A program made the translations under genes and the position numbers. Of a stretch of DNA of 64,000 nt, positions 2,932-59,359 are shown piece by piece (the first letter of the stretch is position 1; each line of letters opens with the position of its first letter). The stretch is from contig SFCB01000150.1 in the NCBI GenBank assembly GCA_004367505.1, positions 1 to 64,000 of the forward strand. Reading direction: 5' to 3'. Source of the DNA: Chloroflexi bacterium OHK40. Its GTDB lineage: Bacteria > Chloroflexota > Chloroflexia > Chloroflexales > Chloroflexaceae. The notes under the pieces were generated by a model that made no database searches, was not told the origin of the DNA, and saw nothing but the letters and a program-made list of their open reading frames with translations.

Positions 2932-6213
<3,282 letters not shown>

Positions 6214-38577: not shown

Positions 38578-40071
38578 TCATGGGCCAGGTGGGGGTGCCA
38601 CGGGTGCGTCCGTGATGAAGGGTTGCAGGTGACGCACGAAGTGCCGTTCCAGAGCCTCGGCGTAGCGCTCGCGGTGCGTGGCGAGCAGCGCGCGCAACTC
38701 GGCGCCGAAGCTCGCCAGGGCGGCGCCGAAGGTGACGTGCAAGATCTGGCGGGCGTCGAACTGGTCGAGCAGGGCGGGCAGCGCATGATCGCTCAGGTGC
38801 GCCGGGTCGGGCATGCGGTCGAGACGCGCCGAGACGTGGTACGTCTGCCGATCCTCGGCGTAGCGCTCGCGAGCCAGCGCGGCGATCTGGCGGAAGCAGT
38901 CGGGCGCGATCCCGGCGACGACGCGGAGGGCCTCCAGGTAGCTGGTGCCCGCCGTTTTGAGATGGACGAGGCCGCCGGTGGCTGCGGCGATCAGGGGGTA
39001 GACACTGAACTTGTCGGAGCCGGAGTGGAGGCTGAGTTTGTAGGGGCCGAGGGCCCGGGCGATCGCGGCGTGGGCGGCCAGATCGGCCTGGAGAGCCGCC
39101 AGGTCGCCCTGATAGTCAACGCCTTTCTCGAAGCGCCCCACGAAGCGGGGCGCCAGCGAGACCCAGGGCACGCCGAGGCGGCGCAGCTCGAGCGCGAGAA
39201 AGCAGTGCTCGGCCGGGGTGGTCGGCGTGTCGGTCTCGTCCACCGAGATCTCCAACTCGAAGGGGACACCCGTTGCAGCGAGGTGGCGGTGGAGAGCGCC
39301 GAGATGGGCGATGGCTCGCCCGTATTTGGCGGCCGCCCGGAGCACATCGGCCTCGCAGAGGGTGAGCTGACCCGTACCGAGATCGATCGTTCGGCCCACA
39401 TAGCGGGCACGCAGGTCGGAGGGAGCGCAGGCGAGCGCTTCCCAGGGCAACGCGGCGACCTTCCGTTCGATCGTCGCGCGATCGTCGCTGGCGGCGGCTG
39501 AGTCCACGTGAGCGCCCGGGTCGAGGGTAAAGGTGGTGAAGCCGGCAGCGACACAGGCATCGATGTCATCCGTCGTCTTGAGATGGTCAGCATCGGCGCC
39601 GACAGGCTCTTGCCAGCCGGCGGCCAGCGCGCCCCAGGTGGCATCGTCGAGCACCTGCTGGGGCGTGCGCCCGGTGCGGGTATTCTCACGGATCGACTGC
39701 TGGGCAAAGATCGGGGCAAGGGTGGCTCCGCACGCCCGCAGCGCGCGGATATGGCCGGGCGTCGCCAGGCCGAGCCGGTCGCCAAAGCCAGCCGAAGTGC
39801 GCAGGCCCAGCGGTCGGGGCTGAAGCCAGGGCAAGGCGCGCCGCACGGCCCGGGCGTTGGCGGGGCTGAGCGGGCCGCGCAACAGGATCTGCCCATCGAC
39901 GATGATGCCCGTGCCATGGAAGGCGGCAAGGGCCGGATGGGTGGCGTCGGCCAGGACGTAGAGCATCGTTGTGGATTCATCCAGCCAGCAGGTGAGCCCC
40001 GCATGCCGCAGCAGCAGAGCGATCCCGGCACGTGGCGCCACGCGCACAGGGGAGGGCGTAACGTCAGGCAT
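38578..40071 (-). CDS. uxaE: Tagaturonate/fructuronate epimerase UxaE
   Basis: A 497-residue enzyme that interconverts D-tagaturonate and D-fructuronate (C4 epimerisation), joining galacturonate and glucuronate catabolism in organisms such as Thermotoga. Family blocks are clear: GLRTSAGFGDRLGLATPGH, FAQQSIRENTRTGRTPQQVL, GADADHLKTTDD, SVDETDTPTTP, YKLSLHSGSDKFSVYPL and HLKTAGTSYLEALRV. Length is as expected. The start follows AAGGAAG with 5-nt spacing. It is the last gene of the minus-strand uronate locus. A uronate isomerase (UxaC) and mannonate enzymes are not seen in the window. Confidence 0.93.
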   Translation of the reverse strand: MPDVTPSPVRVAPRAGIALLLRHAGLTCWLDESTTMLYVLADATHPALAAFHGTGIIVDGQILLRGPLSPANARAVRRALPWLQPRPLGLRTSAGFGDRLGLATPGHIRALRACGATLAPIFAQQSIRENTRTGRTPQQVLDDATWGALAAGWQEPVGADADHLKTTDDIDACVAAGFTTFTLDPGAHVDSAAASDDRATIERKVAALPWEALACAPSDLRARYVGRTIDLGTGQLTLCEADVLRAAAKYGRAIAHLGALHRHLAATGVPFELEISVDETDTPTTPAEHCFLALELRRLGVPWVSLAPRFVGRFEKGVDYQGDLAALQADLAAHAAIARALGPYKLSLHSGSDKFSVYPLIAAATGGLVHLKTAGTSYLEALRVVAGIAPDCFRQIAALARERYAEDRQTYHVSARLDRMPDPAHLSDHALPALLDQFDARQILHVTFGAALASFGAELRALLATHRERYAEALERHFVRHLQPFITDAPVAPPPGP

Positions 40072-40121
40072 TGGGCTTCCTTCTTCTCGCGGCAGCAGTG
40101 GCCAAGCCATCGGTGCACGCC

Positions 40122-40883
40122 TCAGCGGGCAAGCCAGCCCCCATCCACCACGAGGACGTGGCCATGGACGTAGTCGCTGGCCGACGAGGCCAGGAAGACC
40201 GCCGCCCCGGCAAGATCCACAGGCGTGCCCCAGCGACCGGCGGGGATGCGCTCGAGGATCTGGCGCACGCGCTCGGGATCATCGCGCAGGGCCCGGGTGT
40301 TGTCGGTGACCATATAGCCAGGGGCGATGGCGTTCACGTGAACGCCCCGACCCGCCCACTCATTGGCCAGGGCCTTGGTGAGCCCGGCGACGGCGTGTTT
40401 GGCCGCAGCGTAGGCCGGAACGCGGATGCCACCCTGGAAGGCGAGCAATGAGGCGACGTTGATGATCTTGCCGTAACCCTGCGCGAGCATGGGGCGACCC
40501 GCCGCCTGGCAGAGCGCCCAGACGGCATCAAGGTTCACGTCGAGCACGGCGCGCCAATCCTCCCAGGCATACTCGGCAGCGGGCGCACGGCGGATGATCC
40601 CGGCGTTGTTGACCAGAATGTCGAGGCGGCCGAGCCGGGCGAGCGTCTCGGCAACGAGCTCGGCAACCGGCGCCGTGCTGCTCAGATCAGCCACGAGGCC
40701 GAGGCCACGGCGGCCCGCCGCGTGGATGGCCTCCAGGGTATCGTCGTGCTGGCCCGAGCGAGAGACGACGGCGACATCGGCGCCGGCCTGGGCGAGTGCC
40801 ACGGCGATCCCACGCCCGAGGCCCTTATCGCCGCCGGTGACGAGGGCCACCTGCCCGTCGAGACGGAACAGATCAAGCGACAT
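40122..40883 (-). CDS. kduD: 2-keto-3-deoxygluconate (DKII) reductase KduD
   Basis: A 253-residue short-chain dehydrogenase that reduces 2,5-diketo-3-deoxygluconate to 2-keto-3-deoxygluconate in pectin and oligouronide breakdown. Cofactor motif TGGDKGLGRG, NNAGIIRR, and catalytic Ser-Tyr-Lys in VASLLAFQGG and VPAYAAAKHAV are present. ANEWAGRGVHVNAIAPGYM and the end SSASDYVHGH...VDGGWLAR match KduD closely. The start overlaps the end of the DUF2264 gene by 11 bp, so the two are coupled. A gluconate 5-dehydrogenase role is less likely in this context. Confidence 0.93.
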   Translation of the reverse strand: MSLDLFRLDGQVALVTGGDKGLGRGIAVALAQAGADVAVVSRSGQHDDTLEAIHAAGRRGLGLVADLSSTAPVAELVAETLARLGRLDILVNNAGIIRRAPAAEYAWEDWRAVLDVNLDAVWALCQAAGRPMLAQGYGKIINVASLLAFQGGIRVPAYAAAKHAVAGLTKALANEWAGRGVHVNAIAPGYMVTDNTRALRDDPERVRQILERIPAGRWGTPVDLAGAAVFLASSASDYVHGHVLVVDGGWLAR

Positions 40884-42681
40884 CGTTCAGATCCTCCCAG
40901 CTAAAGGGTGGCGGCGAGGCCCAGCACCGCTCCAGATCCTCCGTGTCCACACGACCAATCACCGCGCTGACGAGCCAGCGCTCACCGGGGTCGTGCTCGC
41001 CGTGGAGGGTGGGCAGCGCGGCGCGGGGGACGAGCAGGTTGGTGTTGGGCGAGGTGCGCACGACTTCGCCGCGCCGGCTGCCGCTGATGTCGCGCAGGCC
41101 GCTCCAGCCGGCAGGGTAACGAGCGAGCGCGAAGCCAGGACCGGTGTGCTCCAGGCCCCGAGGCTGGCCAGGGTCGTCACCGGTACGGTCGAGCGCCCAG
41201 CCCCCTTCCGCGCTGCGCAAGCGGCGCCCGCTCCGGATGCGGTGGACACGCAGGTGCCAGGGCAGACGCGGCAGCAGCCAGGTTTCGACCTCGACATCGG
41301 GCCAGGGCTGCCAGCGCGAGAAGACTCCCGCCGCCGTGACGCGGGCCTCCAGCGGTTGCATACGCGCCCGCCAATGGATGCCATCTTCGCTGAGGGCGAG
41401 GGTGTTGTCAAAGGCAGCCTGCACAAGGCCGTAGGGCCCGGCGGGCACACTGACGCCGAAGCGGGTCGAGTAGGCCATGCGGCTATACTTCGCCTCGCCG
41501 CCCCTGGCCCAGGGGGCGTGCTGCAGCCCGCTCAGGGCAAAGAGGTGGTCACCGTCGCGGCAGAGGAGCATCCCGGCGTGGGGCTGGGGGGCAAGGGGCG
41601 GCAGCGGTGGTTGCGGCAGTTCTTCAGCCTGCCAGAACGGGTGCTCATCGGGGAGGGCGAGGGGCAGAAAGGCTTTGAGCGCCCAATAGGGAGATCCGGG
41701 AGAGTTGTAGTCCTCAGCCATGTTCAGGTTGGGGTAGGCGTAGCCGATGGAGAGGGTGCCGTCGCCGTGGAAGATCGGGCGGCGCAGCCACCAGCGCAGG
41801 TGGCGCAAGTGCAGCCCCTTGATCACGCCCCATGGCAGGGCCTCCACCCCGGCGTAGGCCAGCGCCCCCCAGAAGGCGCCCTGGGCGAAACGGTACGTCA
41901 GGCTGCGGCCAAAGGGGAGCCCCGCGCCATCCGGGGCGAACCAGTGCTGGAAATCCTGGGCAAAGCGGGCCGCGCGCTCACGGTAGACGGCGGCCCGCTC
42001 CGGGTCGTTGCGCTCCATCAGCCGCGCGTAGATCAGCCCGTAGAAGTGGAGCGCAAAAGGCCCGTAGTAGTCGCGCTGCACCCGGCTCGGCGGCCCGTCG
42101 TTGTACCAGCCATCGCCGAGATAGAACTCCTCAATCCGGTCGAGGGAGCGCCGCATGGCATCGGGCGGTGGCTCCGCGCCCACGCTGGCGAGCCCCACAT
42201 GGACCAGCACGCGGAAGAAGTGCCAATTGTTATCGGAAGTCTCGGTGTGATCGATCGTGCCCAGCCAGGCGGCGAGGTTGGCGCGCTCGCGGTCGCTCAG
42301 TGGCGCCCAGAGTTGCTCGGGCGTGAGAGCAAGGGCAACGCCGATCGCGGCCATCTCGACCAGGCGCTGGTTGCGGGGCGAGGGCCAGCCCCAGAACTCG
42401 GGGTGGGCCGGGTCGCTGCCGGCGGCCAGCCCACGGGCGAAGCGCGCCCAGTTAGGGTAGGCGCCACCCCCGGCCGCGAGGGGCGCGAGACCCCATAACG
42501 GGCGGGCGAAGCCCTCAAGCTCGGCGCAGTCGTCGGCGAAGTGGGCGCCGGTGGAACCCAGGCGCACCCTGGCCCCCCCGGAACTGACGTAGGGCTCCAG
42601 CGGGGCCAGCATGTCGCGGAGGGCGACCTGCAGGTCGGCGCGGGTGCAGAGCGGATTGGCGGCCAGAGTCGAACAGATCAT
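40873..42681 (-). CDS. DUF2264 protein, possible uronide-active enzyme
   Basis: A 602-residue soluble protein of the DUF2264 family. The N-terminal two thirds look like an alpha/alpha toroid; ELEGFARPLWGLAPL and SDNNWHFFRVLVHVGLA are typical for the family. The last 200 residues are beta-rich. The family has no established function known to me. No signal peptide is present, so it acts in the cytoplasm. It is coupled to kduD and lies 63 bp after the IolB-like gene, so it may process an oligouronide or a modified uronic sugar before the Kdu steps. The start was chosen at MICSTLAANPL, where the family homology begins. Confidence 0.87.
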   Translation of the reverse strand: MICSTLAANPLCTRADLQVALRDMLAPLEPYVSSGGARVRLGSTGAHFADDCAELEGFARPLWGLAPLAAGGGAYPNWARFARGLAAGSDPAHPEFWGWPSPRNQRLVEMAAIGVALALTPEQLWAPLSDRERANLAAWLGTIDHTETSDNNWHFFRVLVHVGLASVGAEPPPDAMRRSLDRIEEFYLGDGWYNDGPPSRVQRDYYGPFALHFYGLIYARLMERNDPERAAVYRERAARFAQDFQHWFAPDGAGLPFGRSLTYRFAQGAFWGALAYAGVEALPWGVIKGLHLRHLRWWLRRPIFHGDGTLSIGYAYPNLNMAEDYNSPGSPYWALKAFLPLALPDEHPFWQAEELPQPPLPPLAPQPHAGMLLCRDGDHLFALSGLQHAPWARGGEAKYSRMAYSTRFGVSVPAGPYGLVQAAFDNTLALSEDGIHWRARMQPLEARVTAAGVFSRWQPWPDVEVETWLLPRLPWHLRVHRIRSGRRLRSAEGGWALDRTGDDPGQPRGLEHTGPGFALARYPAGWSGLRDISGSRRGEVVRTSPNTNLLVPRAALPTLHGEHDPGERWLVSAVIGRVDTEDLERCWASPPPFSWEDLNDVA

Positions 42682-42744
42682 AACATCGCCCTCAGGAGTG
42701 GCGCGTTCCACGCCGGCAGCAGCGGGCAAGCGATGTCCAGCCCA

Positions 42745-43572
42745 TCAGACGCGCCCCACCTGCTTGATCAGCGGTACGGCCTTCTGCACCCAGGCAATGT
42801 CCGGATCGAAGGCGACGGCCTGGGTGCGCCCCGTGCCAGCGAGGAACCAGAGGAAATAGTTCGTGTAGCCGGGAGCGCTGCAGGTAGTGTGGTAGCCGTG
42901 GGGCGCCATGAAGATCGTCGAGTCCTTGATCGTGTAGGTCTGGTCGTAGCCGTGCTCCGGGCTATAGTGGCGGCAGAGACCGAACCCCTCGGCGGGGTTG
43001 ACGCGGAAGTAGTACATCTCCTCGTGGTAGGCCTCGTGGGGGAGGTTCTCCACCTCATGCTTGTGGGGCGGGTAGGTGCTCCAGTTGCCTGAGGGCACGA
43101 AGGTCTCGCCGACCAGCAGCTTCGCGGCCGGCAGCTCGGGCTGGCTGCTGGTGGTGAGGATGTTGAAGAGCGTGCGGCTGAAGTTCGCCGCCCCGGCGTC
43201 CACCTGCACCACCTGCTCGGGCCGGATCACATAGGGCGCGACCTGAAGCTCGGAGGGTGCTGAGCAGAGCCCGGCATCGAGCTGGCCGTGGGCGGTAATC
43301 ACGAAGCTGCTACCGGCGGGGAGGTAGACGGCGTGGGGCTTGCCGGCGAAGGGGTTCGGCCGCCCGCCCACCCGTTCGAAGGTTGTGCCGGCCACCTGCA
43401 CGGTACAATGGCCGCCGAAGATCACGAGCAGGATCTCGCGGTTCCCGGTGGCACCATCGAAGTGCGCGCCGTCCGGCAGCACGAGACGGCTGAAGTCTAG
43501 CAGTCGGCAGGGGTTCGTGTCGAGACCGTTGACACCGTGGTCGCCGCTCACGCGGGTGAAATAGCTCGCCAT
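42745..43572 (-). CDS. iolB: IolB/KduI-family isomerase (5-deoxyglucuronate or 5-keto-4-deoxyuronate isomerase)
   Basis: A 275-residue cupin-fold aldose-ketose isomerase. The metal site is visible: PPHKHEVEN, HEEMYYFRVNP and APHGYHTT give His-x-His, Glu and His ligands. PPHKH and NPAEGFGLCRHY match IolB, which isomerises 5-deoxyglucuronate in inositol catabolism. No other inositol gene is here. The neighbours make and use 5-keto-4-deoxyuronate, whose isomerase in other bacteria is KduI of the same Pfam family. The inferred role is therefore that of KduI. Its ATG overlaps the stop of the oligogalacturonide lyase gene by one base (TGATG). Confidence 0.85.
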   Translation of the reverse strand: MASYFTRVSGDHGVNGLDTNPCRLLDFSRLVLPDGAHFDGATGNREILLVIFGGHCTVQVAGTTFERVGGRPNPFAGKPHAVYLPAGSSFVITAHGQLDAGLCSAPSELQVAPYVIRPEQVVQVDAGAANFSRTLFNILTTSSQPELPAAKLLVGETFVPSGNWSTYPPHKHEVENLPHEAYHEEMYYFRVNPAEGFGLCRHYSPEHGYDQTYTIKDSTIFMAPHGYHTTCSAPGYTNYFLWFLAGTGRTQAVAFDPDIAWVQKAVPLIKQVGRV

Positions 43573-44747
43573 CAGTGGGGCTCCTCTACCTCAAGGAGAT
43601 ACAGCTGGACCTGGCCGCTACGGTCGGACGCGAACAAGATCCGCCCGCCGTCCCAGCTCCATGTAGGGTGACAGTGGGTTTCCTGGCTCTGCCAGGACGT
43701 ACCGTGGGTGCAGAGGGGTGTGGCTCGGGCCACCTCGCCCGCGATATCGATCAGCAGGATCTCGTCGACGGAGTCGCCCACGAGGTGGGTACCGGCGGGG
43801 TTGGCGTGGTAATGGTTGCAGGCGATCGGCATGGGGATGGTGCGCAGCAGCGCGCCGCGCTCGTCGAGCAGGCCAACATAGGGCTGGAAGTCGCCGTAGT
43901 CGTGGAAGGCGACCTCGCGGGCTACCGCCTGGGTACGGGCGCTGGTAATCGTGCCGTCGTGGCCGGGGCCACGGTTGTCGAAGAAGATTTTGCCGTCCAT
44001 CGTCCAGAACTCGTGGCCTACCGAGTCCTGCTCGCCCTGGCGGAAGGCCGGCACGGCCCGGCGGCTCACCAGATCGAGCAGCCAGATGCGCTGGGTAACG
44101 AGGTGCCACGGCCCCTCATGGCAGAAGATCGCCAGCGTGGGGTGCACCGGGCTGAACTGGAAGTGGGCCAGCTGGCAGGTATCGCGGAAGAGATCGAAGC
44201 TACCAGAGCCATCGGCGTGAGCCAGGGTGATCCGTCCATCTTTGATACCATAATAGCGCTCTTTGAAGCCCTGGTAGTTTGGACCGTGGGGCGCGCCAGG
44301 CTCGTTGCGGGTGAAGCCAACAAAACGCCTATCGGCACTGATCGAGGGGCGGCCAATCGTCAGGCCCTCGCGCTCTTCGTGCACCAGGGTTCTCGCCCCG
44401 GTCTGCGTATCGAGGAGGATCACCTCGTGGCCGGCGACATAGGCGAGCAAGCGGCCGTCGGGCGTCTTGGTGGCATTGCGCACCGGGAGGGTCTCATCGG
44501 TGAGCCGGGAGATCACGCCGCTGCCCAGGTCCATGCAATAGAGGGCGTAGTGCGCTTCGTGGGCGGGCCGGCGCTGCGGCGCGGCGCGGTCGGAGAGGAA
44601 GACGATCCGCTCGTGGCCCCGGTCGAAGGCGTTATCCGTGAAGTAGAGGTGGACATTGTGGCCCTGGCTGGTGAGCTGCCGGATGGCCCGGCCAGTGGTC
44701 TCATCGCGGATCGTGCGGCCCTCGGCGGGCCAGGTCTGTCCGATCAT
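43572..44747 (-). CDS. ogl: Oligogalacturonide lyase (PL22)
   Basis: A 391-residue seven-bladed beta-propeller that splits unsaturated and saturated digalacturonate to 5-keto-4-deoxyuronate in the cytoplasm. N-terminal MIGQTWPAEG and HNVHLYFTDNAFD are typical. The metal ligands fit: Gln355, His358 and His360 in SQETHCHPTW reproduce the Q-x-x-H-x-H of characterised enzymes; His312 or His314 (NHYHANP) may supply the fourth. No signal peptide is present. The gene overlaps both neighbours: 4 bp with the upstream enolase-superfamily gene and 1 bp with the isomerase gene. Confidence 0.9.
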   Translation of the reverse strand: MIGQTWPAEGRTIRDETTGRAIRQLTSQGHNVHLYFTDNAFDRGHERIVFLSDRAAPQRRPAHEAHYALYCMDLGSGVISRLTDETLPVRNATKTPDGRLLAYVAGHEVILLDTQTGARTLVHEEREGLTIGRPSISADRRFVGFTRNEPGAPHGPNYQGFKERYYGIKDGRITLAHADGSGSFDLFRDTCQLAHFQFSPVHPTLAIFCHEGPWHLVTQRIWLLDLVSRRAVPAFRQGEQDSVGHEFWTMDGKIFFDNRGPGHDGTITSARTQAVAREVAFHDYGDFQPYVGLLDERGALLRTIPMPIACNHYHANPAGTHLVGDSVDEILLIDIAGEVARATPLCTHGTSWQSQETHCHPTWSWDGGRILFASDRSGQVQLYLLEVEEPH

Positions 44748-45841
44748 CGGGTGCTGCTCCGCTTCTCGGCTGCGGCGACAAAGGCCGGCTGGAGCTCCAC
44801 ACCCCAGCCGGGGCGAGTGGGCAAGGGCAGCTGGCCGTCTACCACGGCAGGCATGGGGGTGTAGATCGTTTCGGCCCAGGGGGCATCGTCGTCCAGGCGA
44901 TACTCCTGGAACTGGCTGCACGCGGGCATGGCCGCCGCCAGATGGAGGGTGAAGATCTGGAGCAGCGAGTGGTTCGAGCAGTGGGGCGTACAGACAACCC
45001 CAGCCAGTTCGGCCAGTTCGGCCACGCGCCGGGCGCGGCTGATCCCGCCGATATAGCCCACATCGAACTGGACGACGTCGACCGTACGGGTATCAATCAG
45101 CCGTTTGAAGGTCCGCAGGTCCCAGTCCTGTTCGCCGCCAGCCACGGGAATATCGAGGGCATCGGCGACGATCCGGGTATTCTCGGGCTCATCGTAGGGG
45201 CAGGGCTCCTCGAAGTGGAAATAGCTGTGGCGCTCGAGCAGGCGGCCCACCTGGATGGCTTTCGCGGGCGTGTAGCTGCCATTGGCGTCGGCGCTGATGG
45301 CGATGTCGGGGCCGAGTGCCTCGCGCATGAGTGGGACAATCCGCTCGGTACGGCCGGGCCAGGCATCGGCATCGCGGCTCATGCGCCCGCCAATCTTGAT
45401 CTTGACGCAGCGGAAGCCGTAGCGCCGCACGGCCTCCCGCATGCGCTCAGCCTCCTGCTCGGGCGTGATCAGGCGGCTCAGGCTGGAGGCGTAGAGCGGC
45501 ACCCGATCGCGTACCGCGCCGCCGAGGAGCTTGTAGACCGGCTGGCCCGTGAGTTTACCGAGGAGATCCCAGACGGCGGTCTCCACGCCACAGAGCGCCC
45601 GGCACTTGATCGTGCCATTGTACTTATAGTTCTGGCGCATGGCCCGCTCCACCAGCGCGCCGACATCCCACGGGTCGGCGCCGAGGAAGATCGGGGCGAT
45701 CAGCTTGTGGAGCGCGGCGACGGTGAGGTCGGCACCGTGGCAGGCGGTCTGCCCGATGCCCTCGTGGCCCGTGTCGGTACGAACGCGCACGGCCGCGACC
45801 TTGTCGCCATGCAGCAGGGTCTCGATATGGGTGATCTGCAT
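44744..45841 (-). CDS. Enolase-superfamily (mandelate racemase type) sugar-acid dehydratase, copy 1
   Basis: A 365-residue enzyme. Catalytic residues are visible: Lys147 and Lys149 (VKIKIG), metal ligands Asp185 (DANGSY), Glu211 (FEEP) and Glu237 (GGEQ), then Asp260 (FDVGYIGG) and His287 (TPHCSNH). This Lys/His-Asp set is that of mandelate racemase subgroup acid-sugar dehydratases. The substrate is not predictable but should be a hexonate, hexarate or uronate in this locus. The ATG at 45841 lies 4 bp after the GH88 stop codon; a GTG 21 bp upstream is possible. It overlaps the lyase gene downstream (ATGA). Confidence 0.9.
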   Translation of the reverse strand: MQITHIETLLHGDKVAAVRVRTDTGHEGIGQTACHGADLTVAALHKLIAPIFLGADPWDVGALVERAMRQNYKYNGTIKCRALCGVETAVWDLLGKLTGQPVYKLLGGAVRDRVPLYASSLSRLITPEQEAERMREAVRRYGFRCVKIKIGGRMSRDADAWPGRTERIVPLMREALGPDIAISADANGSYTPAKAIQVGRLLERHSYFHFEEPCPYDEPENTRIVADALDIPVAGGEQDWDLRTFKRLIDTRTVDVVQFDVGYIGGISRARRVAELAELAGVVCTPHCSNHSLLQIFTLHLAAAMPACSQFQEYRLDDDAPWAETIYTPMPAVVDGQLPLPTRPGWGVELQPAFVAAAEKRSSTR

Positions 45842-45845
45842 TGGT

Positions 45846-46973
45846 TCACCAGCAGGTTTCACGGAGGCCGTCGAGCTTCTGGAGCGCCTCCAGGTAGTAG
45901 TAGTCGCCGTAGATCAGGGCCACGTCGATGTTCTGGCCCTTGGGCAGGTTCCCGGTGGCGTGGCGGAGCAGGGCATCGTGGGCGGGATCATCGGCGGTAC
46001 CGCAGTGGGCCGCCAGGGCCATGAGCAAGTCGGTTGCGGCCGCCACAAAGGGCTTGCCCTCGCCGGGGGGGAGCAGGGCGGCGAGCTCCAGCAGGCCCGA
46101 GGCCGCGATCGCCCCGGCCGAGCTGTCGCGCGGTGCGGTAGCAACGTCGGGGGCGCCGAAATCCCAGGGGGGCACCCCTTCGGGGGGCAGCGTGGCGAGG
46201 AAGCTGTTGGCTACACGGTAGGCGGCGGCGCGGAACTCGGGCACGCGGCTGTAGCGGTAGGCGAGGGCGAAACCGTAGAACGCCCAGCTCTGGCCACGGC
46301 TCCAGCAGGAGTCGGGGGCGTAGCCCTGGCCGCCGCGCGTCTCCAGGGGCATACCAGTCTCCTGGTCGAAGCGCACGATGTGGTTGGTCGAGCCATCGGG
46401 GCGAACGTGGGTGCGCAGCGTGGTATGGGCGTGGGCCAGGGCCACATTGCGAAAGCGGGGCTGCTGGAACTCATCGGCGGCCCAGAAGAGCAGCGGCAGG
46501 TTCATCATGGTGTCGATAATCACCAACCCACGGCGCTCCTCGGTGTTCCAGGCCTCGATAAAGCCGGTGCCGGCGGGGTTGAAGCGCCCCATGAGCAGGT
46601 TGGCCGCCAGGAAAGCGCGCCGACGCGCGGTAGGGTCGCCGGTGAGCTTGTAGCGCATCACGGCCGTGGGGCTGAACTGGAAGCCCACGTCGTGATGCAG
46701 GAGGTAGAGCCGGTCATCGCAGACGGCTCGCTCCAACTCGGCCTCGGCATGCGCCGCTGCGGCGAGCAGCGCCGGGTCACCCGTGCGCCGGTAGGTGAGG
46801 AGCAGCAGGCCAGGCCAGAAGCCCGAGGTCCACTCGTCGGCGTCGAGGGGCAGATAGCGGCCGGCATCGGTGGCGTGCAGAAAGGCGCCGCCGAGACGCA
46901 GGGCGAGGGCAGTCACCCGCGCCTCGGCGGCTGCGCGGGTGGTGGTAAGCCACTCATGGGTCGAGGTCTGCAT
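45846..46973 (-). CDS. Unsaturated glucuronyl/galacturonyl hydrolase (GH88/GH105 type)
   Basis: A 375-residue alpha6/alpha6-barrel enzyme that hydrates the 4,5-double bond of unsaturated uronyl ends, releasing 5-keto-4-deoxyuronate. The two catalytic-type aspartates are seen: Asp95 in LLHHDVGFQF and Asp154 in LVIIDTMMNLP, spaced as in GH88. CWSRGQSWAFYGFALAYRYS and DSSAGAIAASGLLEL are family motifs. No signal peptide, so oligosaccharides must be imported first. Direct neighbours are the enolase-family and lyase genes. GH88 is favoured over GH105 by the HHDVGFQF motif. Confidence 0.9.
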   Translation of the reverse strand: MQTSTHEWLTTTRAAAEARVTALALRLGGAFLHATDAGRYLPLDADEWTSGFWPGLLLLTYRRTGDPALLAAAAHAEAELERAVCDDRLYLLHHDVGFQFSPTAVMRYKLTGDPTARRRAFLAANLLMGRFNPAGTGFIEAWNTEERRGLVIIDTMMNLPLLFWAADEFQQPRFRNVALAHAHTTLRTHVRPDGSTNHIVRFDQETGMPLETRGGQGYAPDSCWSRGQSWAFYGFALAYRYSRVPEFRAAAYRVANSFLATLPPEGVPPWDFGAPDVATAPRDSSAGAIAASGLLELAALLPPGEGKPFVAAATDLLMALAAHCGTADDPAHDALLRHATGNLPKGQNIDVALIYGDYYYLEALQKLDGLRETCW

Positions 46974-47108: not shown

Positions 47109-48170
47109 CTAGCCGTGAAGCGCGGCGATCACGGCGTCGGTCATGGTGCGTGTATCGGCGCTGCCGCCGATGTCGGGCGTACGAATGCGCCCGGCGGCAG
47201 TGACGCGCTCGACGGCGGCGAGGAGCGCACGGGCGGCGGCGGCCTCCCCCAGAAAGTCGAGCAGCATGCTGAGCGCCCAGAAGGTGGCGATCGGGTTGGC
47301 GATCCCCTGGCCCGCAATGTCGGGGGCCGAGCCATGCACGGGCTCGAAGAGCGAGGGAAAGCGCCGCTCGGGGTTGAGGTTGGCGCTGGCCGGAATGCCC
47401 AGGCTCCCCTGCAAGGCGCCCACCAGGTCGGTGAGGATGTCCCCGAACAGGTTCGAGGCAACCACGACGTCGAAGCGGGCCGGGTCGCGCACGAGCATGG
47501 CCGCCATCGCGTCGGCGTGATAGCGCTGTACCGCGACGTCGGGGTAGTCGGCGGCCACTATCTCTACCACCTCGTCCCACATGACGAAGGCGTACTGCAT
47601 GGCGTTCGACTTGGTGACACTAGCAAGGCGCCTGTGGCGGCTCCGGGCGAGATCGAAGGCGTAGCGCACGATGCGCTCCACCCCACGGCGGGTACAGATC
47701 GTAGTCTGCAGCGCCACCTCGTCGGGTGTGCCGGCCCGCAGGCGTCCACCCGCGCCAGCATACTCGCCCTCGGAGTTCTCGCGCACCACTACGATATCGA
47801 AGGCCGGGTCACCCTTGAGCGGTGTAGGCAACCCGGCGAGCGGCCGGGCGGGGCGGAGATTCACGTACAGATCGAAGCGCTGGCGAAGGGGCACCAGCAA
47901 CCCGCGCAGCGAGATGTGGTCGGGCACGAGGCGTGGGTCACCCACGGCACCGAGCAGGATGGCATCGTAGGCGCGCAGTTCGGCAAAACCGCTCTCGGGC
48001 AGCATCTCGCCGTGCTCCAGGTAGTAAGTGCACGACCAGGGATACTCATGCAGAGCAACGCTGAACCCGAAGTGTCTGCCGAGGGCCTCGAGTACCCGCA
48101 CACCCTCGGGGATCACTTCGCGGCCGATACCATCGCCGGGAATAAGCGCGATGCGGTAGATCATGCTCAT
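47109..48170 (-). CDS. Tartrate/D-malate-type beta-decarboxylating dehydrogenase
   Basis: A 353-residue member of the isocitrate/isopropylmalate dehydrogenase family. PGDGIGREVIPEGVRVL, WSCTYYLEHGEMLPESG, LLGAVGDPRLVPDHISL and NLRPARPLAG place it with tartrate dehydrogenase/D-malate dehydrogenase (TtuC/DmlA), not LeuB. VVRENSEGEYAGAGG and GSAPDIAGQGIANPIA are also present. Such enzymes use NAD and Mn to oxidise and often decarboxylate 2-hydroxy acids. In this locus it could act on a dicarboxylate derived from a hexarate. The start lies 4 nt after AGGAG; a second ATG two codons later is possible. Confidence 0.88.
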   Translation of the reverse strand: MSMIYRIALIPGDGIGREVIPEGVRVLEALGRHFGFSVALHEYPWSCTYYLEHGEMLPESGFAELRAYDAILLGAVGDPRLVPDHISLRGLLVPLRQRFDLYVNLRPARPLAGLPTPLKGDPAFDIVVVRENSEGEYAGAGGRLRAGTPDEVALQTTICTRRGVERIVRYAFDLARSRHRRLASVTKSNAMQYAFVMWDEVVEIVAADYPDVAVQRYHADAMAAMLVRDPARFDVVVASNLFGDILTDLVGALQGSLGIPASANLNPERRFPSLFEPVHGSAPDIAGQGIANPIATFWALSMLLDFLGEAAAARALLAAVERVTAAGRIRTPDIGGSADTRTMTDAVIAALHG

Positions 48171-48271
48171 CTCGCTCCTCGTGGCCCACCACGCCGATCG
48201 GTCGGGGACAAGACACCCCACCGAGGGGGTGTCGTGGGATCGCGATCCAGCGAACACCCCATGGTGCCCCC

Positions 48272-49327
48272 TCAGGCCACGGCAGGCGGCGCGGCGGCGC
48301 CACGCAGCGTGAGTGTCTCGGCAAAGTGGCAGGCAACATGCTGGCCGGGCGCGATCTCGCGCAAGGGGGGCGCCTCGCTGGCACAGCGCGCCTGGGCGTA
48401 GCGACAGCGGGGGTGGAAGTGGCAGCCCGACGGCGGATTGGCCGGATCGGGCACCTCGCCCTGGAGCACGATCCGCATACCGCGTAGCCGTGGATCGGGC
48501 CTGGGCACATTGGCGAGCAGGGCCTCGGTGTAGGGGTGGCGCGGCTGGGCGAAGAGCTTGCTCGTCTCGGCCAGTTCCACCACACGGCCAACGTACATCA
48601 CCGCCACCCGATCGGAGATGTAGCGCACCACACTCAGGTTGTGGGCCACGAAGAGGTAGGTCAGGCTGAGCTCGGCCTGGAGATCCTGCATCAAATTGAG
48701 GATCTGGGCCTGCACGCTCACATCGAGCGCACTCACGGCCTCGTCGGCCACAACAAGGCGCGGGCCGGTGGCCAGGGCGCGGGCGATCCCGATCCGCTGG
48801 CGCTGCCCGCCGGAGAAGGCGTGGGGGTAGCGGCGCATGTACTCGGGCGGGAGCTTCACGCGGCGCAGCAACTCGGCCACCCGCGCCTCCAGCTCTTTGC
48901 CGCTGGCAATACCGTTGACCAGGAGCGGCTCGCCGATGATATCGAGCACGGTCATACGAGGGTTCAGCGAGGCGAAGGGATCCTGAAAAACCATCTGCAT
49001 GGCGCGGCGGTAGGGCTTCAGTTCGGCGTCGCCGAGTTGCGCAAGGTCAACGACCTGCCCATCGTCACCGCGAAAGCAGATGCGGCCCGCCGTGGGCGGC
49101 GTCTTGTAGGCCCGCACGATACTGCGGCCAGTGGTCGTCTTGCCGCAGCCACTCTCGCCCACCAGGCTCAGGGTTTCACCGGGCCACAGGCGAAAGCTGA
49201 CGCCATCCACCGCCTTCACCTCACCCACCTTGCGCTGGAGTAAACCCCGGCGGATCGGGAAGTAGACCTTTAGGTCCTGCACCTCAAGCAGGGCCGCGTG
49301 TGCATCGCGCGGAGCTGTACGGTCCAT
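48272..49327 (-). CDS. Oligopeptide/oligosaccharide ABC transporter ATPase, OppF type
   Basis: A 351-residue ATPase. Walker [10 protein letters not shown], signature FSGGQRQR, Walker [15 protein letters not shown] and a switch His ([13 protein letters not shown]) are present. The C-terminal extension has the [14 protein letters not shown] cysteine cluster typical of OppF/DppF, which may bind an iron-sulfur cluster. The ATG overlaps the OppD-type stop codon (TGATG), so the pair is coupled. With the OppD-type subunit it powers uptake by the two permeases upstream. Confidence 0.95.
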
Positions 49328-50397
49328 CACTGGCCTCCGATGATCGCGAGCGCGGGCTCCGCCGCGTGGCCGGCCCCCCGTTGCCCATCGCCTGGGGGCT
49401 CGTGGAGCCAGCAACGGGCCTGCTGGAGCGGGCCAACCCGGGTGAGCGGCGGGGCCGTGTGAGTGCAGAGCTCCAGCTGGTGAATGATCCGCTCGCGGCA
49501 GCGAGTGTGGAAGGGGCATCCGCCAGGGCGAGCGTAGGGATGAGGCACCGCGCCGGGGATGGCATCGAGGCGGGCCCGGGTTACGTCCTCGATACGGGGG
49601 ATGGAGCGCAGCAACCCGCGGGTGTAGGGATGCTGCGGGTGGTGGAAGATCGCGTCGACCGGCCCATGCTCAACGATCTGGCCGAGGTACATCACGGCCA
49701 CCTCGTCGGCGATCTCGGCCACCACACCCAGATCATGGGTGATGATCACCACCGTCATGCCCAGCTCCGCCTGGAGCTGGCGGATCAGCTCCAGGATCTG
49801 GGCCTGCGTCGTCACATCCAGGGCCGTGGTGGGCTCATCAGCGATCAGCAGGGCGGGCCGGCAGATCAGCGCCATCGCGATCATGGCTCGCTGGCGCATA
49901 CCGCCCGAGAGCTGGTGGGGGTAGGCATCGACGCGCTGAGCAGGGTGGGGAATGCCCACCCGATGCAGCATCTCGACGGCAAGCGCGCGCGCCTCCCGCC
50001 GGCTGGCCCCACTGTGGAGCCGCAGGCGCTCCACAATCTGGCTGCCGATGGTGTGTACCGGGCTGAGAGCGGCCATCGGCTCCTGGAAGATCATCGCCGC
50101 CTCGCGGCCACGGAAAGCCCGCATCTCGCGGCTCTTGCGCTGGTAATCGAGCAGGTTGACCACATCGCCGGGGGCGCGATGGTAGCAGATCCTGCCGCCG
50201 ACGATCTTGCCAGGCGGGGTAACGATCTGCAGGATCGAGCGGGCCATGATGCTCTTGCCACAGCCGCTCTCGCCCACGATCGCCAGGGTTCGCCCGCGCC
50301 GCACCTGGAGGCTCACCCCGTCCACCGCCTTCACGACGCCATCGTCGAGGAAGAAGTGGGTTTTGAGGTCCTCGATCTCAAGGAGCAGATCGTTCAT
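49327..50397 (-). CDS. Oligopeptide/oligosaccharide ABC transporter ATPase, OppD type
   Basis: A 356-residue ATPase. Walker [10 protein letters not shown], signature LSGGMRQRA, Walker [15 protein letters not shown] and [13 protein letters not shown] are visible. The C-terminal [11 protein letters not shown] cysteine motif is typical of OppD/DppD. It forms a heterodimer with the coupled OppF-type subunit. It lies 9 bp after the OppC-type permease. Family 5 importers also carry oligosaccharides such as cellobiose or uronides, which suits this locus. Confidence 0.95.
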
Positions 50398-50406
50398 ATG
50401 TACTCT

Positions 50407-51567
50407 CTACGCATAGGGGTCGGCCGCATCGCGGAGGCCGTCGCCAAGGAAGTTGTAAGCGATCACGATCAGCATCACCACGAGCGCGGGGGTGATCAAC
50501 CACGGGGCGGTGGCCACGGTGCGAACGTTCTGCGCGTCCTGGAGCAGCACACCGTAGCTGATGATCGGCTCCTTGAGCCCGAGGCCGAGGAAGCTCAGGC
50601 TGGTCTCGCCGAGGATGCGGCCGGGGATGGTGAGGGTGAGCGAGGCGATGATATGGCTGACGAAGGAGGGTAGCATGTGGCGAAAGATGATCCGCCGCTC
50701 GCTGGAGCCGCTCACGCGGGCGGCCATCACGAAATCCTCCTCGCGCAGCGCGAGGAAACGACCGCGCACCACGCGGGCCATGCCCGTCCAGCCGAGTAGC
50801 GAGAGCACCAGCGTGATCGCGAAGTAGACCCAGAGGGGTGGCCAGGTGAGCGGGATGGCCGCGCTGAGGCCCATCCAGAGCGGCAGGCTGGGGATGGCAT
50901 CAATAAACTCGATCAGCCGCTGGATCAGCATGTCCACCCGGCCACCGAAGTAGCCCGAGATGCCACCCAGGGTGACGCCGAGCACCAGGCTGAGCGCCAC
51001 CGCCGCCAGGCCGATCGAGAGCGAGATGCGGGTCGCGTGGACCATCCGCGAGAACAGGTCGCGCCCGAGCCGGTCGGAGCCGAGCACGCTGATGAGCTGC
51101 GTGCCATCGCGGGTACCGAAGAGGCGCAGATCGGTGGGGATCACGCCGAGCAGCCGGTAGGGCTCGCCACGCACGAAGAGGCCCAGCTCGATCCGCTGGC
51201 TGTAGTCGAGGGTGTAGACGCGACGCATCGTCTCGACCTCCACGGTGCTCTTGAGGCCGTAGGTGAAGGGCCACGTGAGGCGACCATGTTCGATGAGGTA
51301 GATCACCTGGGGCGGGGCGTAGGTGCGGGTCGCGTGGACGGCCATCGGGTTGTAGGGGGCCACGAACTCGGCGAAGATCGCCACCAGGAAGAGCGTGGCG
51401 AGCACACCAAGCGAGACCATGGCCAGGCTGTGTTTGCGGAAGCGCCACCACATCAGCCGCCACTGGGAGGCCGTTGCCACGGCGCGCTCGCTGGCCTCCT
51501 CGCGCTCCAGGGCCGCCAGTTCGTCCTGTATATGTTTGGGGAGCGTTCCGAGATGGCTCGCGCTCAT
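50407..51567 (-). CDS. ABC transporter permease, OppC type
   Basis: A 386-residue inner-membrane permease. The first helix is near residues 45-70, followed by an unusually long external loop of about 110 residues (YNPMAVHATRTYAPP to LFGTRDG). Five helices follow. The EAA-type ATPase-contact loop is EEDFVMAARVSGSSERRIIFRHMLPS. The N-terminal cytoplasmic 40 residues are acidic. It pairs with the OppB-type permease 61 bp upstream. Confidence 0.94.
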   Translation of the reverse strand: MSASHLGTLPKHIQDELAALEREEASERAVATASQWRLMWWRFRKHSLAMVSLGVLATLFLVAIFAEFVAPYNPMAVHATRTYAPPQVIYLIEHGRLTWPFTYGLKSTVEVETMRRVYTLDYSQRIELGLFVRGEPYRLLGVIPTDLRLFGTRDGTQLISVLGSDRLGRDLFSRMVHATRISLSIGLAAVALSLVLGVTLGGISGYFGGRVDMLIQRLIEFIDAIPSLPLWMGLSAAIPLTWPPLWVYFAITLVLSLLGWTGMARVVRGRFLALREEDFVMAARVSGSSERRIIFRHMLPSFVSHIIASLTLTIPGRILGETSLSFLGLGLKEPIISYGVLLQDAQNVRTVATAPWLITPALVVMLIVIAYNFLGDGLRDAADPYA

Positions 51568-51628
51568 AAGCCTTGATCCGGGGGGAGCGACCAGCGGCGA
51601 TCACTCGCTCGCGGCCGGGCGCTCCTGC

Positions 51629-52612
51629 TCACTGGTAACGGATGCGTGGGTCGAGCCAGGCTAGCAGAATGTCGGAGATCAGCACGCCGAGCACCGAGAG
51701 GATGCTCAAGAGGAAGATGTAGCTACCGGCGAGGTACATGTCCTGGGAGAGCAGGGCCTGGAGCAGCAGCGGCCCGGCGGTCGGCAGGCTCAGCACGATG
51801 CTGGTGATCGTCGCGCCGGAGATCAGCCCGGGCAGTGTATCGCCGATACCGCTGACGAAAGGGTTCAAGGCCACCCGCACCGGGTACTTTGCCGTCAGGC
51901 GCCACTCGGTCAGGCCTCTGGAGCGGGCCGCCTCGACGTAGGGCTTGTGCAGCTCGTCGAGCAGGTTGGCCCGCAGGATGCGGATCAGGCCAGCCGTGCC
52001 ATTGGTGCCGATCACCACCACCGGGATCCAGAGGTGGCCGAGGAGATCCCAGACTCGCGCCAGACTCCACGGCGCGTTCTCGAACTCGGGCGAGAAGAGC
52101 CCGCCGACGCTCATGTCGAAGTAGAAGAACGAGATCCACATGAGCACCAGGGCGAGCAGGAAATCGGGCGTGGCCAGGCCGACGAAGCCAACAAAGGAGA
52201 CCGCGTAGTCGCCCAGGGTGTTCTTGCGCATGGCGGCGAAGATACCCATGGGAATGGCAACCGCCCATACGAAGACCGTGGTCGCGAGGGCGAGCAGGAA
52301 GGTGAGCAGCATGCGCTGGCCGAGCAAGGCGCTCACGGGCTGCTTCCACTGGAAGGAGTAGCCGAAGTCGCCGGTGAGCACGCCGGTAAACCAGCGCCAG
52401 TATTGCACATACCAGGGCTGATCGAGGCCGTAGCGCTCGCGCAGCTGCGCGGCCCGCTCGAGGTCGGCCTGGTCGCCGTTGGCGAGAGCGCGAGCCTCAA
52501 ACGAGGTGATGAAGTCGCCCGGCGGGAGCTGGATGATAAAAAACGTCACCAGTGAGATCGCCAGGAGCGTGGGGATGAAGTAGAGCACCCGGCGGATAAT
52601 ATACGATGTCAT
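51629..52612 (-). CDS. ABC transporter permease, OppB type
   Basis: A 327-residue permease with six predicted helices. The start TSYIIRRVLYFIPTLLAISLVTFFI is the OppB/DppB signature. The ATPase-contact loop reads KPYVEAARSRGLTEWRLTAKYPVRVALNPFV when read through in pieces. It is encoded 109 bp after the binding protein and is the first membrane subunit of the operon. Confidence 0.94.
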   Translation of the reverse strand: MTSYIIRRVLYFIPTLLAISLVTFFIIQLPPGDFITSFEARALANGDQADLERAAQLRERYGLDQPWYVQYWRWFTGVLTGDFGYSFQWKQPVSALLGQRMLLTFLLALATTVFVWAVAIPMGIFAAMRKNTLGDYAVSFVGFVGLATPDFLLALVLMWISFFYFDMSVGGLFSPEFENAPWSLARVWDLLGHLWIPVVVIGTNGTAGLIRILRANLLDELHKPYVEAARSRGLTEWRLTAKYPVRVALNPFVSGIGDTLPGLISGATITSIVLSLPTAGPLLLQALLSQDMYLAGSYIFLLSILSVLGVLISDILLAWLDPRIRYQ

Positions 52613-52721
52613 TGGCGCGCTCCGCGCACGAGGGTCCGGCGAGCGGGAGACAAGGAGCGTCGCGTGGGTCGCCTGCGGACAAGCCTGGCCCCTGGTCTCC
52701 CTGCTCGCTCACGGCGGGACA

Positions 52722-54773
52722 TTACGCCTCGCGGATGAAGAACTGCTCCGCCTTCGCGGCGGCCGGATTGGGCCAATTATAGGCATCGAACATGGTGCGG
52801 GGCACGTTGCCGTAGCTATTCTTGACGATCCCGAAGCCAGGGGCAGGCAGGGCGATCCCGAAGACATAAAACTGCTCTTTGGCGATCGCGAGGATCTGCC
52901 GCATCAACTCGGCCTGCTCGGCCTCATCGGCGGTGGTGCGAAGCTGCTTGTAGAGCGCGATCTGCTCCTGCACCGGGGCCGGCGGTTCCTCCGCACCCTC
53001 GTCCTCGGGGTCGTTGGCCCAGATCCGCCAGGCAATCCCAAAGTGGCTCTCCTGGTCGAAGGGCATGTAGAAGGATGGCAGCAGCACGGTATCGAAGCCG
53101 CTACCGCCATTACCGGACCAGGCGGTCGCGTCGTGGTCGTTGGCGTTGACGCGCTCACGGAACAGGGTGCGTTCCACCGAAGAGAAGATGGCGGTAATGC
53201 CGATCGCCTCCCAGTTGGCGATCACCTGGGGCATCGGGTCACGATCGCGGTCGGCCAGGATCACGAACTCGATCGGATTCCCGTCGGGGCCGACGCGGCG
53301 ACCATCGGCGCCCCGGGTATAGCCGGCCTCGTCGAGCCAGGCCTCGGCCTGGGCGGGATCGTACTGGGTGAACTGGGTGCCCATCTCCTCGTCGGCGAAG
53401 ACCGAGGTGGGCACTGGTGCAGCCTGCCAGGGCTGGCCCTGGCTCACGTAGACCAGGTCGATGATCTCCTGGCGATTGATCGCCACCGAGAGGGCCTGGC
53501 GGAAGAGCCGGTTATTGAAGATCTCGCGCTTGACGGGGTCCTTGTGGGTAAGATTGAGGCTGATCACGTCGGTGTTCATGTTCGACGAGATCGTCTCATA
53601 GAAGTCGTAGCCGCCCTTCTCCCGCCCATCGGCCAGCACCGGCTTGGAGGAGAAGTCGCCCACGCGCCGGTCCTGCAGGCCGATCTCGCCATTCAGGGCG
53701 CTGAGCACCAGTACTTCGCGGTCGCTCACGATACTGTAGCGCACACTATCGATATAGGGGAGCTGCTGGCCCTCGGCATCAACCTTCCAGTAGTAGGGGT
53801 TGCGCTCGGCGTTGAGCACCTGGCTCTCGCCAAGGCGATTCTTCAGCACCCAGGCCGTGAGCGTCGGGAGTTCGGGGTTCTGGTTGCGGGCAGTGATCCC
53901 ACTCAAGTCGAAGGCGACCTTCGCCTCCCAGAGCTCGACCCACGAGGAGAGGCCAGCGGCCGCCACCTCGGCATCCAGGTTGGGGTTGAACTCCGGCAGG
54001 AAGCGTTTGGCGTACTCAGCCTGATAGTGAGTCAGCTCCAGCCCGTTTGGGATGGCCAGGCGCTGAAGGAACAGGCCGTTAGGCACGGGCCACTCGAAGA
54101 TCACCGTCGTCGGATCGGGCGCGGTGACCACCGGATCGACATCTTCGCCATCCACGATGACCTGCATCCAGCCGGGGAAGTCGCCGTGGAGCTCGTCGTT
54201 CAGGCGGATCTTCTCCGCCCAGAAGAGAATATCGGCGCTGGTGAACGGCGTCCCGTCCGACCACTTCACCCCCTCGCGCAACTTGAAGGTATACTTTGCG
54301 CCGCCATTCTCTACCTTCCAGCTTTCGGCGAGGTTTGGCTCGACGGCCGTCCAGTCCAGGTTCCAGCGCACGAGCCCGTCGTAGAGGATGGACTTGAGCA
54401 GGGTGACGTTGTCGTCCTCCTCCATGCCCATAGTCCACTCGCCGCCATAGACGCCGATCTGGTCGAGCACCTCAACCACAAGGGGGTTCTTCGGCAGGCG
54501 CTGGTCGACCGGAGGCAGGCTGCCGGCCTCCACGAGCCTGGCCAGCATCGGCGCCTCTTTGTAGACGCTCGCGGTCGTGGCGGGCGTTGTCGCGGCGGCA
54601 GCGGCTGTGGGCGCGGCAGTCGGCGCGGTGGTGGGTGCGGCCGGGGCGGGTGCTGGCGTGGCGGTAGGATCCACAGCGGGAGCCGGGGGTGCGGCGCAGG
54701 CAGCGAAGAGACCGGCCGCGCCGGCAGTGGCCGAGAGCCGCAGGAACTGACGACGGGACAAGGGCTTGCTCAT
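52722..54773 (-). CDS. Solute-binding lipoprotein, family 5 (ABC importer)
   Basis: A 683-residue substrate-binding protein. A Tat-type signal lies at residues 1-26 (SRRQFLRLSATAG) with lipobox-like FAAC; a Pro/Ala/Thr-rich linker follows to about residue 70. The SBP_bac_5 domain then runs to the end, with ESWKVENGGAKYTFKLREGVKWSDGTPFTSADI in pieces as its hallmark. It is long for the family. It heads the importer operon and probably captures oligouronides, although peptide binding cannot be excluded from sequence. A ribosome binding site GGAGG lies upstream. Confidence 0.93.
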   Translation of the reverse strand: MSKPLSRRQFLRLSATAGAAGLFAACAAPPAPAVDPTATPAPAPAAPTTAPTAAPTAAAAATTPATTASVYKEAPMLARLVEAGSLPPVDQRLPKNPLVVEVLDQIGVYGGEWTMGMEEDDNVTLLKSILYDGLVRWNLDWTAVEPNLAESWKVENGGAKYTFKLREGVKWSDGTPFTSADILFWAEKIRLNDELHGDFPGWMQVIVDGEDVDPVVTAPDPTTVIFEWPVPNGLFLQRLAIPNGLELTHYQAEYAKRFLPEFNPNLDAEVAAAGLSSWVELWEAKVAFDLSGITARNQNPELPTLTAWVLKNRLGESQVLNAERNPYYWKVDAEGQQLPYIDSVRYSIVSDREVLVLSALNGEIGLQDRRVGDFSSKPVLADGREKGGYDFYETISSNMNTDVISLNLTHKDPVKREIFNNRLFRQALSVAINRQEIIDLVYVSQGQPWQAAPVPTSVFADEEMGTQFTQYDPAQAEAWLDEAGYTRGADGRRVGPDGNPIEFVILADRDRDPMPQVIANWEAIGITAIFSSVERTLFRERVNANDHDATAWSGNGGSGFDTVLLPSFYMPFDQESHFGIAWRIWANDPEDEGAEEPPAPVQEQIALYKQLRTTADEAEQAELMRQILAIAKEQFYVFGIALPAPGFGIVKNSYGNVPRTMFDAYNWPNPAAAKAEQFFIREA

Positions 54774-54839: not shown

Positions 54840-56672
54840 TCAGGCCAGCGGGAGAAACCGGAGGGCGATCGCCAGCTCGTGCGCTGGCACGCGGTGGGCC
54901 AGGGTCACCCGGGTGACGGTACGGGGGCCATCGCGCAAATCAACATCGCGCAGGGTCTCGATACACAGCTCGAGCTCTGCGGCGTCGAAGACGATCAGCA
55001 GGCGGCCCCGCTCGCCCTCCAGGATAAGCTGGCCCGGCGCATCCGGGCGAACGCAGGCAAGGCTGATCAGAACGCTGGCGAGCCGTCCGGGGTCAGCGTG
55101 GAAGCGCGCGCAGTCGCACAGCTCCACGGCGCCGTCGGGCGTGTCGCGGCAGAGGGTGATACGGCGCTCCAGCATCGCCAGGCCGGCGGCAGGCGGATAG
55201 GCCGGGGCCAGATCGAGGGCGAAGGTCTCTGAGGTTGGCGCATGCTCCCAGCGGGCCCAGCGCGCGCCACCCGGGCCAGCGACCTGCTCGTGGTTGTTCA
55301 CCAGGGGTACGCTGTGGCCAAGTGAGCGGTTGGCGAGCAGCGTGTAGCGCGTAGCACCACGAAAGGTGTCACGGGTATAGCGCATCGCGCCGAGGTCGGC
55401 CAGGAGCGACTCTCCGCGCCAGTGGATCACGAAGGAGCCGACGTCGTTCTGGTTATGGGGCTCGGCGTTGTGGCCGCCCTTCGCCGCCAGCACCAGGCCG
55501 TTCGGGTTGGCGGGGTTGGCTCGCGCCACGAACCACTGAATATCGGCGAGCAGATCGGCGGCCGGGGGGCGCGCCTGCGGGAGCGGTTCCTGGCGGTCAG
55601 GGTACCAGAACAGGTCGCGCAGCTTTTCGGCAGGCCCGCGCCGGGTAAGGGCCCGCGCGGTGGGGTCCTCATCAGCGAGGGCGGCGAGCTCGGGCAAGCC
55701 GTAGCGGCGCGCGAGGAAGTGGAGCAAGGCGGGCTGGGGGCGCCGGTCGAGGCCGGTATCGGAGAAGGGGGCGTACACCCCGGGGCTGAGCGCAACGCGC
55801 GCCGGGAACCGGGCGATCCGGGGCATACGCGGATGGGCAAGCAGATCGACGTGACCGGCGGTGCGGGCCGCGAGCAACTCGCCGAAGGCGGCGACGAAGA
55901 AGATCCCCTTCTCCCAGTAGCCGATACCCTCGGGTGTGCCACCGTCATCGCCGAACGTAGCGAGGTAGCGCTCGATCCCCGCGAGGGCTCTGGCGAGCAC
56001 GGCCGCAAGGCGGTCGAGATCGTGCTCCAGGTAGAGCGCGGCGATAGCCGTACCACCGGCGCAAACGGGCATCCAGTTGTTGATCGGCTTCGGGCCGTAG
56101 CCGAGCCACGGATAGTCGTCGCGGGACAGAAAAGGCCGCGTGCTGCGGCGCTCCACCTCGGCGCGGAGGCGGGCGCGAACGGCGGGATGCAGCGCATCGC
56201 CGAGCAGATAGTCAACTTCGGCCACGGTTGCCGCAGTAATGGCCGAGTAGAGATCGATCAGCGGCACCTCCGGGTCGGGGAGCCCGAGGGGATACTCAGC
56301 GGCGTGAGCGGGAACAACCCAGCTGCTCTCTTCGCAGATCGCCCAGAGCTCATTCAGCGCGGCATCGAGAAAGCGCCCCTGGCCCTGGAGGCACTCGGCG
56401 AGGGCGAAGAGGATCAGGCGGGTACGGCGGCGCACGTGGGGTTTCTCGAAGGGTTCGCGCGCGCCACTGCGCTGGAAGGCCAGAAAAGCGCTGGCGGGGA
56501 GGGGCGGTGTGGGCTCGGTCAGCTCCGCCTCGGCACGAGCGCAGATCTCGTGCCCGAGCGGTGTTCCGGCGCGGGCGCTCCAGCGAGCGCGCTCCGCACG
56601 CGCCGGGAACGGAAACGGCTCGCGCGTCGCGCGCAGCGTTGCGGCGAGCTGTGCCTGCTCGAAGGGACTCAT
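54840..56672 (-). CDS. Heparinase II/III-like protein, putative polysaccharide lyase
   Basis: A 610-residue protein. The N-terminal part (about 60-330) is a predicted alpha/alpha toroid with INNWMPVCAGGTAIAALYLE and FGDDGGTPEGIGYWEKG. The C-terminal part (about 380-610) is the beta-sheet Hepar_II_III domain, with AKGGHNAEPHNQNDVGSF and SLLADLGAMRYTRDTF. These families cleave uronate-containing polysaccharides by beta-elimination. There is no signal peptide, so it would act on imported oligosaccharides. It is the first gene after a strong promoter and starts the long minus-strand run. The substrate (alginate, heparin-like or pectic) is undetermined. Confidence 0.86.
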   Translation of the reverse strand: MSPFEQAQLAATLRATREPFPFPARAERARWSARAGTPLGHEICARAEAELTEPTPPLPASAFLAFQRSGAREPFEKPHVRRRTRLILFALAECLQGQGRFLDAALNELWAICEESSWVVPAHAAEYPLGLPDPEVPLIDLYSAITAATVAEVDYLLGDALHPAVRARLRAEVERRSTRPFLSRDDYPWLGYGPKPINNWMPVCAGGTAIAALYLEHDLDRLAAVLARALAGIERYLATFGDDGGTPEGIGYWEKGIFFVAAFGELLAARTAGHVDLLAHPRMPRIARFPARVALSPGVYAPFSDTGLDRRPQPALLHFLARRYGLPELAALADEDPTARALTRRGPAEKLRDLFWYPDRQEPLPQARPPAADLLADIQWFVARANPANPNGLVLAAKGGHNAEPHNQNDVGSFVIHWRGESLLADLGAMRYTRDTFRGATRYTLLANRSLGHSVPLVNNHEQVAGPGGARWARWEHAPTSETFALDLAPAYPPAAGLAMLERRITLCRDTPDGAVELCDCARFHADPGRLASVLISLACVRPDAPGQLILEGERGRLLIVFDAAELELCIETLRDVDLRDGPRTVTRVTLAHRVPAHELAIALRFLPLA

Positions 56673-59144: not shown

Positions 59145-59177
59145 ACTGTCCTCCCTGAAGCTCAACCACTGAGCACT

Positions 59178-59240: not shown

Positions 59241-59359
59241 AACTCTACCAGCTGGCAACCCGTGTATTTCTTTGCCAGCGCCCTGCTCTGTGCAGGCAAG
59301 CGGCGATCGTCGTCTACGTGGCAAACCGCCAGAGCAGTTCAGAGAAAGAGGGCTGCACC

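Follow-up and report, generated by a model that had tools for sequence, protein, structure and literature searches.

The KduI step of uronate degradation is in all probability (roughly 0.8) carried out by an IolB-like protein in the window, by which we mean the whole 64,000-nucleotide stretch of DNA from Chloroflexi bacterium OHK40 that was analysed. The protein would be a metal-dependent bicupin aldose-ketose isomerase converting 5-keto-4-deoxyuronate to 2,5-diketo-3-deoxygluconate; its substrate, reaction, metal and regulation are assigned from the gene context and from a few residues. It is predicted to have 275 amino acids from an ATG start and is a full-length member of the KduI/IolB family PF04962 (Pfam 265.7 bits, gathering cut-off 23.9). 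It barely passes the NCBIfam equivalog model of IolB (TIGR04378; 209.5 bits, cut-off 205) and fails that of canonical KduI (NF002091; 19.1 bits, cut-off 250), and it contains the motifs PPHKH (residues 168–172) and NPAEGFG (residues 192–198, approximately), which bears out a first-pass annotation of the window that had placed it closer to IolB than to KduI. When the PDB was searched with the sequence, the sole match was 2qjv, an IolB-like protein.

The isomerase gene lies in a run of minus-strand genes that spans from a gene for a LacI-family protein, which is likely the regulator of the locus, to that for UxaE (Table 1). From the GH88/GH105 gene through the UxaE gene, with those for the PL22-like protein, the isomerase, the DUF2264 protein and KduD in between, the genes overlap or are at most about 16 bp apart and therefore probably form one transcript. 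Only the DUF2264 gene separates the isomerase gene from kduD. Its product is probably glycan-acting; a literature search found no paper on DUF2264 as a glucuronidase. The start of the PL22-like gene is taken as the ATG at position 44747, the listed open reading frame extending to 44921. The first-pass annotation had seen lyases and KduD in the locus; KduD is confirmed, but the lyases hold in part, the PL22-like protein being divergent (56 bits, cut-off 30) and the heparinase II/III-like protein remaining below its cut-off. Two further features were observed near the operon on the same strand: just downstream of it a gene for an 857-residue NB-ARC/AAA and TPR protein of the STAND signalling type (35141–37714), and at 60555–60780 a C-terminal remnant, some 66 residues long, of a short-chain dehydrogenase (SDR) of the D-mannonate oxidoreductase type, of which the upstream gene part is missing.

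Table 1. Genes of the uronate locus in the window, with the match or reasoning on which each name is based.
Feature	Position	Strand	Basis or remark
UxaE, tagaturonate epimerase	38578..40110	-	PF16257, 440 bits
KduD	40122..40883	-	TIGR01832, 360 bits (cut-off 338.85); next pathway enzyme
DUF2264 protein (DUF2264 + DUF2264_C)	40873..42729	-	domain match
IolB-like isomerase ("IolB2")	42745..43572	-	proposed 5-keto-4-deoxyuronate isomerase; metal ligands H170, H172, E185, H228
PL22-like (oligogalacturonate lyase-like beta-propeller)	43572..44747	-	stop overlaps isomerase gene start
Enolase-superfamily sugar-acid dehydratase (MR/MLE) 2	44744..45862	-	domain match
GH88/GH105 unsaturated uronyl hydrolase	45846..46973	-	PF07470, 44.6 bits; source of proposed substrate
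Tartrate/isopropylmalate-type dehydrogenase	47109..48257	-	TIGR02089, 505 bits
Opp/Dpp-type ABC importer (2 ATPases, 2 permeases, family-5 solute-binding protein)	48272..54773	-	
Heparinase II/III-like protein	54840..56672	-	weak match, just below Pfam cut-off
Enolase-superfamily sugar-acid dehydratase (MR/MLE) 1	56992..58083	-	
LacI-family regulator	58089..59324	-	

KduI and IolB catalyse the same chemistry, in which the C1 aldehyde and C2 hydroxyl of a uronate give way to a C2 ketone, and a change of pocket residues on one scaffold would therefore suffice to switch between their substrates. In the proposed pathway the ABC importer would take up unsaturated oligouronides and the GH105 hydrolase would make the substrate of the isomerase; the latter would yield 3-deoxy-D-glycero-2,5-hexodiulosonate, which KduD would reduce to 2-keto-3-deoxygluconate. 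Since the hydrolase would make the substrate and KduD would take the product, the KduI reaction is the one that we infer for the enzyme. The same gene order, with KduD and UxaE encoded side by side downstream of the isomerase, would also suit a promiscuous isomerase that acts both on 5-keto-4-deoxyuronate and on ordinary hexuronates, as delivered by mixed unsaturated and saturated oligouronides, all the more as the chemistry is the same for both substrates. We nevertheless consider such dual use unlikely, because there is no sign of it in the sequence and because the genome has a separate UxaC (on contig C129, where its neighbours encode a GH2 protein and an SDR).

The genome (6.93 Mb in 301 contigs, estimated to be 100% complete) contains only two members of PF04962, the window isomerase and an IolB on contig C239 that scores 326 bits for IolB. 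A profile search of the whole genome found no canonical KduI, the presence of which elsewhere had been named beforehand as an argument against the assignment. An RpiB/LacAB protein, and thus DhuI, was likewise looked for in the genome and not found, and a member of the KDPG aldolase family is present. The earlier statement that inositol genes are absent is correct for the window but not for the genome, since the IolB on C239 belongs to a complete iol operon (iolG, iolB, iolC, iolD, a rhizopine/inositol-type binding protein, ABC genes, iolA and iolE).

The preferred reading, that the window protein catalyses the KduI step, is also favoured by the gene context of its relatives. In 61 genomes (the source genome and 60 of the same family and order) the gene for the window-like protein is mostly next to kduD or not far from it, and that for a canonical IolB next to iolC/D/E. 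A scan of GTDB genomes yielded 80 named loci of the clade in Chloroflexota, Micromonosporaceae, Meiothermus and Trueperaceae, the hosts thus being Chloroflexota, Micromonosporaceae and Deinococcota. At 61 of these loci the next gene downstream, on the same strand, is kduD (63 of 80 if kduD anywhere in the stretch is counted), a GH105 gene is near the isomerase at 43, and one or the other is found at 72; where the flanks are long enough, neither is seen at 6 of 74 loci. The usual gene order, GH105 - isomerase - KduD, is the order of the reactions. Linkage to iolC/D/E was found at none of the 80 clade loci, and conversely neither KduD nor GH105 was found near any of 26 iol-linked IolBs. With a KduI model, which was positive in four controls (E. 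coli, B. subtilis, Caulobacter and Bacteroides), no match was obtained in 301 sampled Chloroflexota genomes, and 14 of 25 clade-bearing genomes have no other member of the family. It should be noted, however, that at least four clade-bearing genomes of Actinomycetota also have a canonical KduI, in three of four next to a KduD, which counts against a strict replacement there; in these organisms the two enzymes may have different substrates. Several loci deviate in other ways. One genome (G045) has two clade members at separate loci (L041 and L034), which share 55% and 66% identity with the window protein and each have a KduD of their own, and another genome (G341) also has two. A Chloroflexota sub-branch of the clade (L056, L061, L064 and L072) has neither KduD nor GH105 nearby; a PL22-like gene adjoins the isomerase gene in L056 and L061, and L061 has a GH106-like gene in addition.

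The presence of UxaE in the window operon would suit yet another role, namely the isomerization of hexuronates (galacturonate to tagaturonate, glucuronate to fructuronate) so as to supply UxaE in place of UxaC. Precedents can be found for it: KduI from E. coli has been proposed to act on such hexuronates (PMC3578941), and in genomes that lack UxaC a neighbouring group of IolB-like proteins is encoded next to UxaE and an SDR of the fructuronate reductase type. For the window protein we regard this role as very unlikely, since UxaC is encoded elsewhere in the genome and since UxaE is near only 8 of the 80 clade members, as compared to 63 of 80 for KduD. The neighbouring group deserves mention in its own right. 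It is a third IolB-like group, from Chloroflexota, represented by L136 (469–1356, G074:C11) and L137 (8241–9314, G098:C16), with genes nearby for UxaE, a LarA-type hexonate epimerase and an SDR of the D-mannonate oxidoreductase type (399 and 348 bits, cut-off 281). No UxaC was found in the searched genomes that carry this group, whose members are candidates for a hexuronate isomerase that replaces UxaC. A separate observation concerns plasmids of Rhizobium leguminosarum (L128, gene at 4935–5768, and L160), on which a protein annotated as 5-deoxy-glucuronate isomerase is encoded outside iol operons. Close to it are genes for a hydroxyacid dehydrogenase and an Opp-type importer, together with a mandelate-racemase-family gene and, as tested in L128, one for a GH39-like hydrolase.

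The predicted structure of the window isomerase (AlphaFold, pLDDT 90.8) matches best the fold of IolB 2qjv (Z 35.7, 1.8 Å), followed by KduI structures (Z 22–25). H170, H172, E185 and H228 align with the metal-binding set of KduI, which in the E. coli enzyme we take to be H196, H198, E203 and H245, and are invariant across all groups. The groups differ at other positions. All 56 clade members and all 6 KduIs compared carry G155, T157, T166 and W242 (numbering of the window protein), whereas the usual residues in iol-linked IolBs are V, V, S and N, respectively, the position of W242 being N or T in all 26 of them. Seven alignment columns distinguish the two IolB groups while being fixed in KduI; four of them agree with KduI and two with IolB. 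This is suggestive and no more, and the retention of ancestral states could also be the cause. If our reading is right, the four positions at which the uronate enzymes differ from the inositol enzyme amount to a compact test of specificity. That the window protein is an ordinary IolB for 5-deoxyglucuronate, present in the operon fortuitously or because a 5-deoxyuronate arises from another source, as its score slightly above the IolB cut-off and its closest fold might suggest, is hardly credible in view of the canonical IolB in the genome's own iol operon, the clade's lack of linkage to iolC/D/E and the replacement of the typical inositol-linked residues, and the 5-deoxyglucuronate alternative offered earlier is accordingly disfavoured.

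In phylogenetic trees the window clade forms one group (SH-aLRT 100 in one tree, 100/100 in another) and the iol-linked IolBs form a separate one (91/86), to which the window protein does not belong; the outgroup sequences were taken from plasmid records. KduI joins the tree by a very long branch, and a topology that groups it with the window clade is not significantly worse than the best tree (AU test, p = 0.59). It is therefore possible that an IolB was recruited to pectin catabolism and also possible that IolB was derived from an older uronate isomerase. Of the original proposal of an IolB recruited in place of KduI, the replacement is well supported by gene context, by the want of another candidate in the genome and by the residues, but the direction implied by "recruited" is not.

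When ten further clade members were tested, nine exceeded the TIGR04378 cut-off, so that automatic annotation probably names the clade 5-deoxy-glucuronate isomerase; NCBIfam likely misnames it. Should the assignment be right, a whole clade that scores as "IolB", and hence as belonging to inositol catabolism, has been misassigned, and the missing isomerase of uronate-degradation loci in Chloroflexota and Micromonosporaceae is supplied. We found no papers on an IolB-like KduI, on KduI in Chloroflexota or on IolB in pectin loci in a search that had most subscription journals outside its reach.

How does the enzyme compare with known systems? With IolB (TIGR04378; 2qjv) it shares the bicupin family, the best fold match, the metal ligands and an equivalog score just passed, but its clade is separate, with a mean identity of about 32%, never occurs with iolC/D/E, and has W242 and T157 where IolB has N and V. 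With KduI (NF002091; 1xru, 7e4s) it shares the Pfam family, the metal ligands, the G/T/T/W residues and the place before kduD, although the identity is only about 20%, the score 19 bits where 250 are required and the connecting branch very long. UxaC catalyses an analogous aldose-ketose isomerization of a uronate but has an unrelated fold and is present elsewhere in the genome. DhuI, which together with KduI makes up the two known DHU isomerases in the literature searched (PMC12838403), is a known non-homologous stand-in for KduI and is described there as clustered with a KduD/DhuD reductase; its RpiB/LacAB fold, however, is unrelated to the bicupin of the window, and the family is absent from the genome. 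The KduI profile of that survey was built from KduI relatives at E < 1e-5, and since a KduI profile made in our analysis gives the window clade only about 20 bits, the survey probably missed such loci; if our assignment is correct, surveys that count only KduI and DhuI overlook these pathways. On balance we favour the view that, on the IolB side of the family, the KduD-linked clade of Chloroflexota, Micromonosporaceae and Deinococcota represents a third type of 5-keto-4-deoxyuronate isomerase beside KduI and DhuI, with the neighbouring IolB-like group replacing UxaC and IolB itself being, perhaps, a derived inositol branch of an older family of uronate isomerases.
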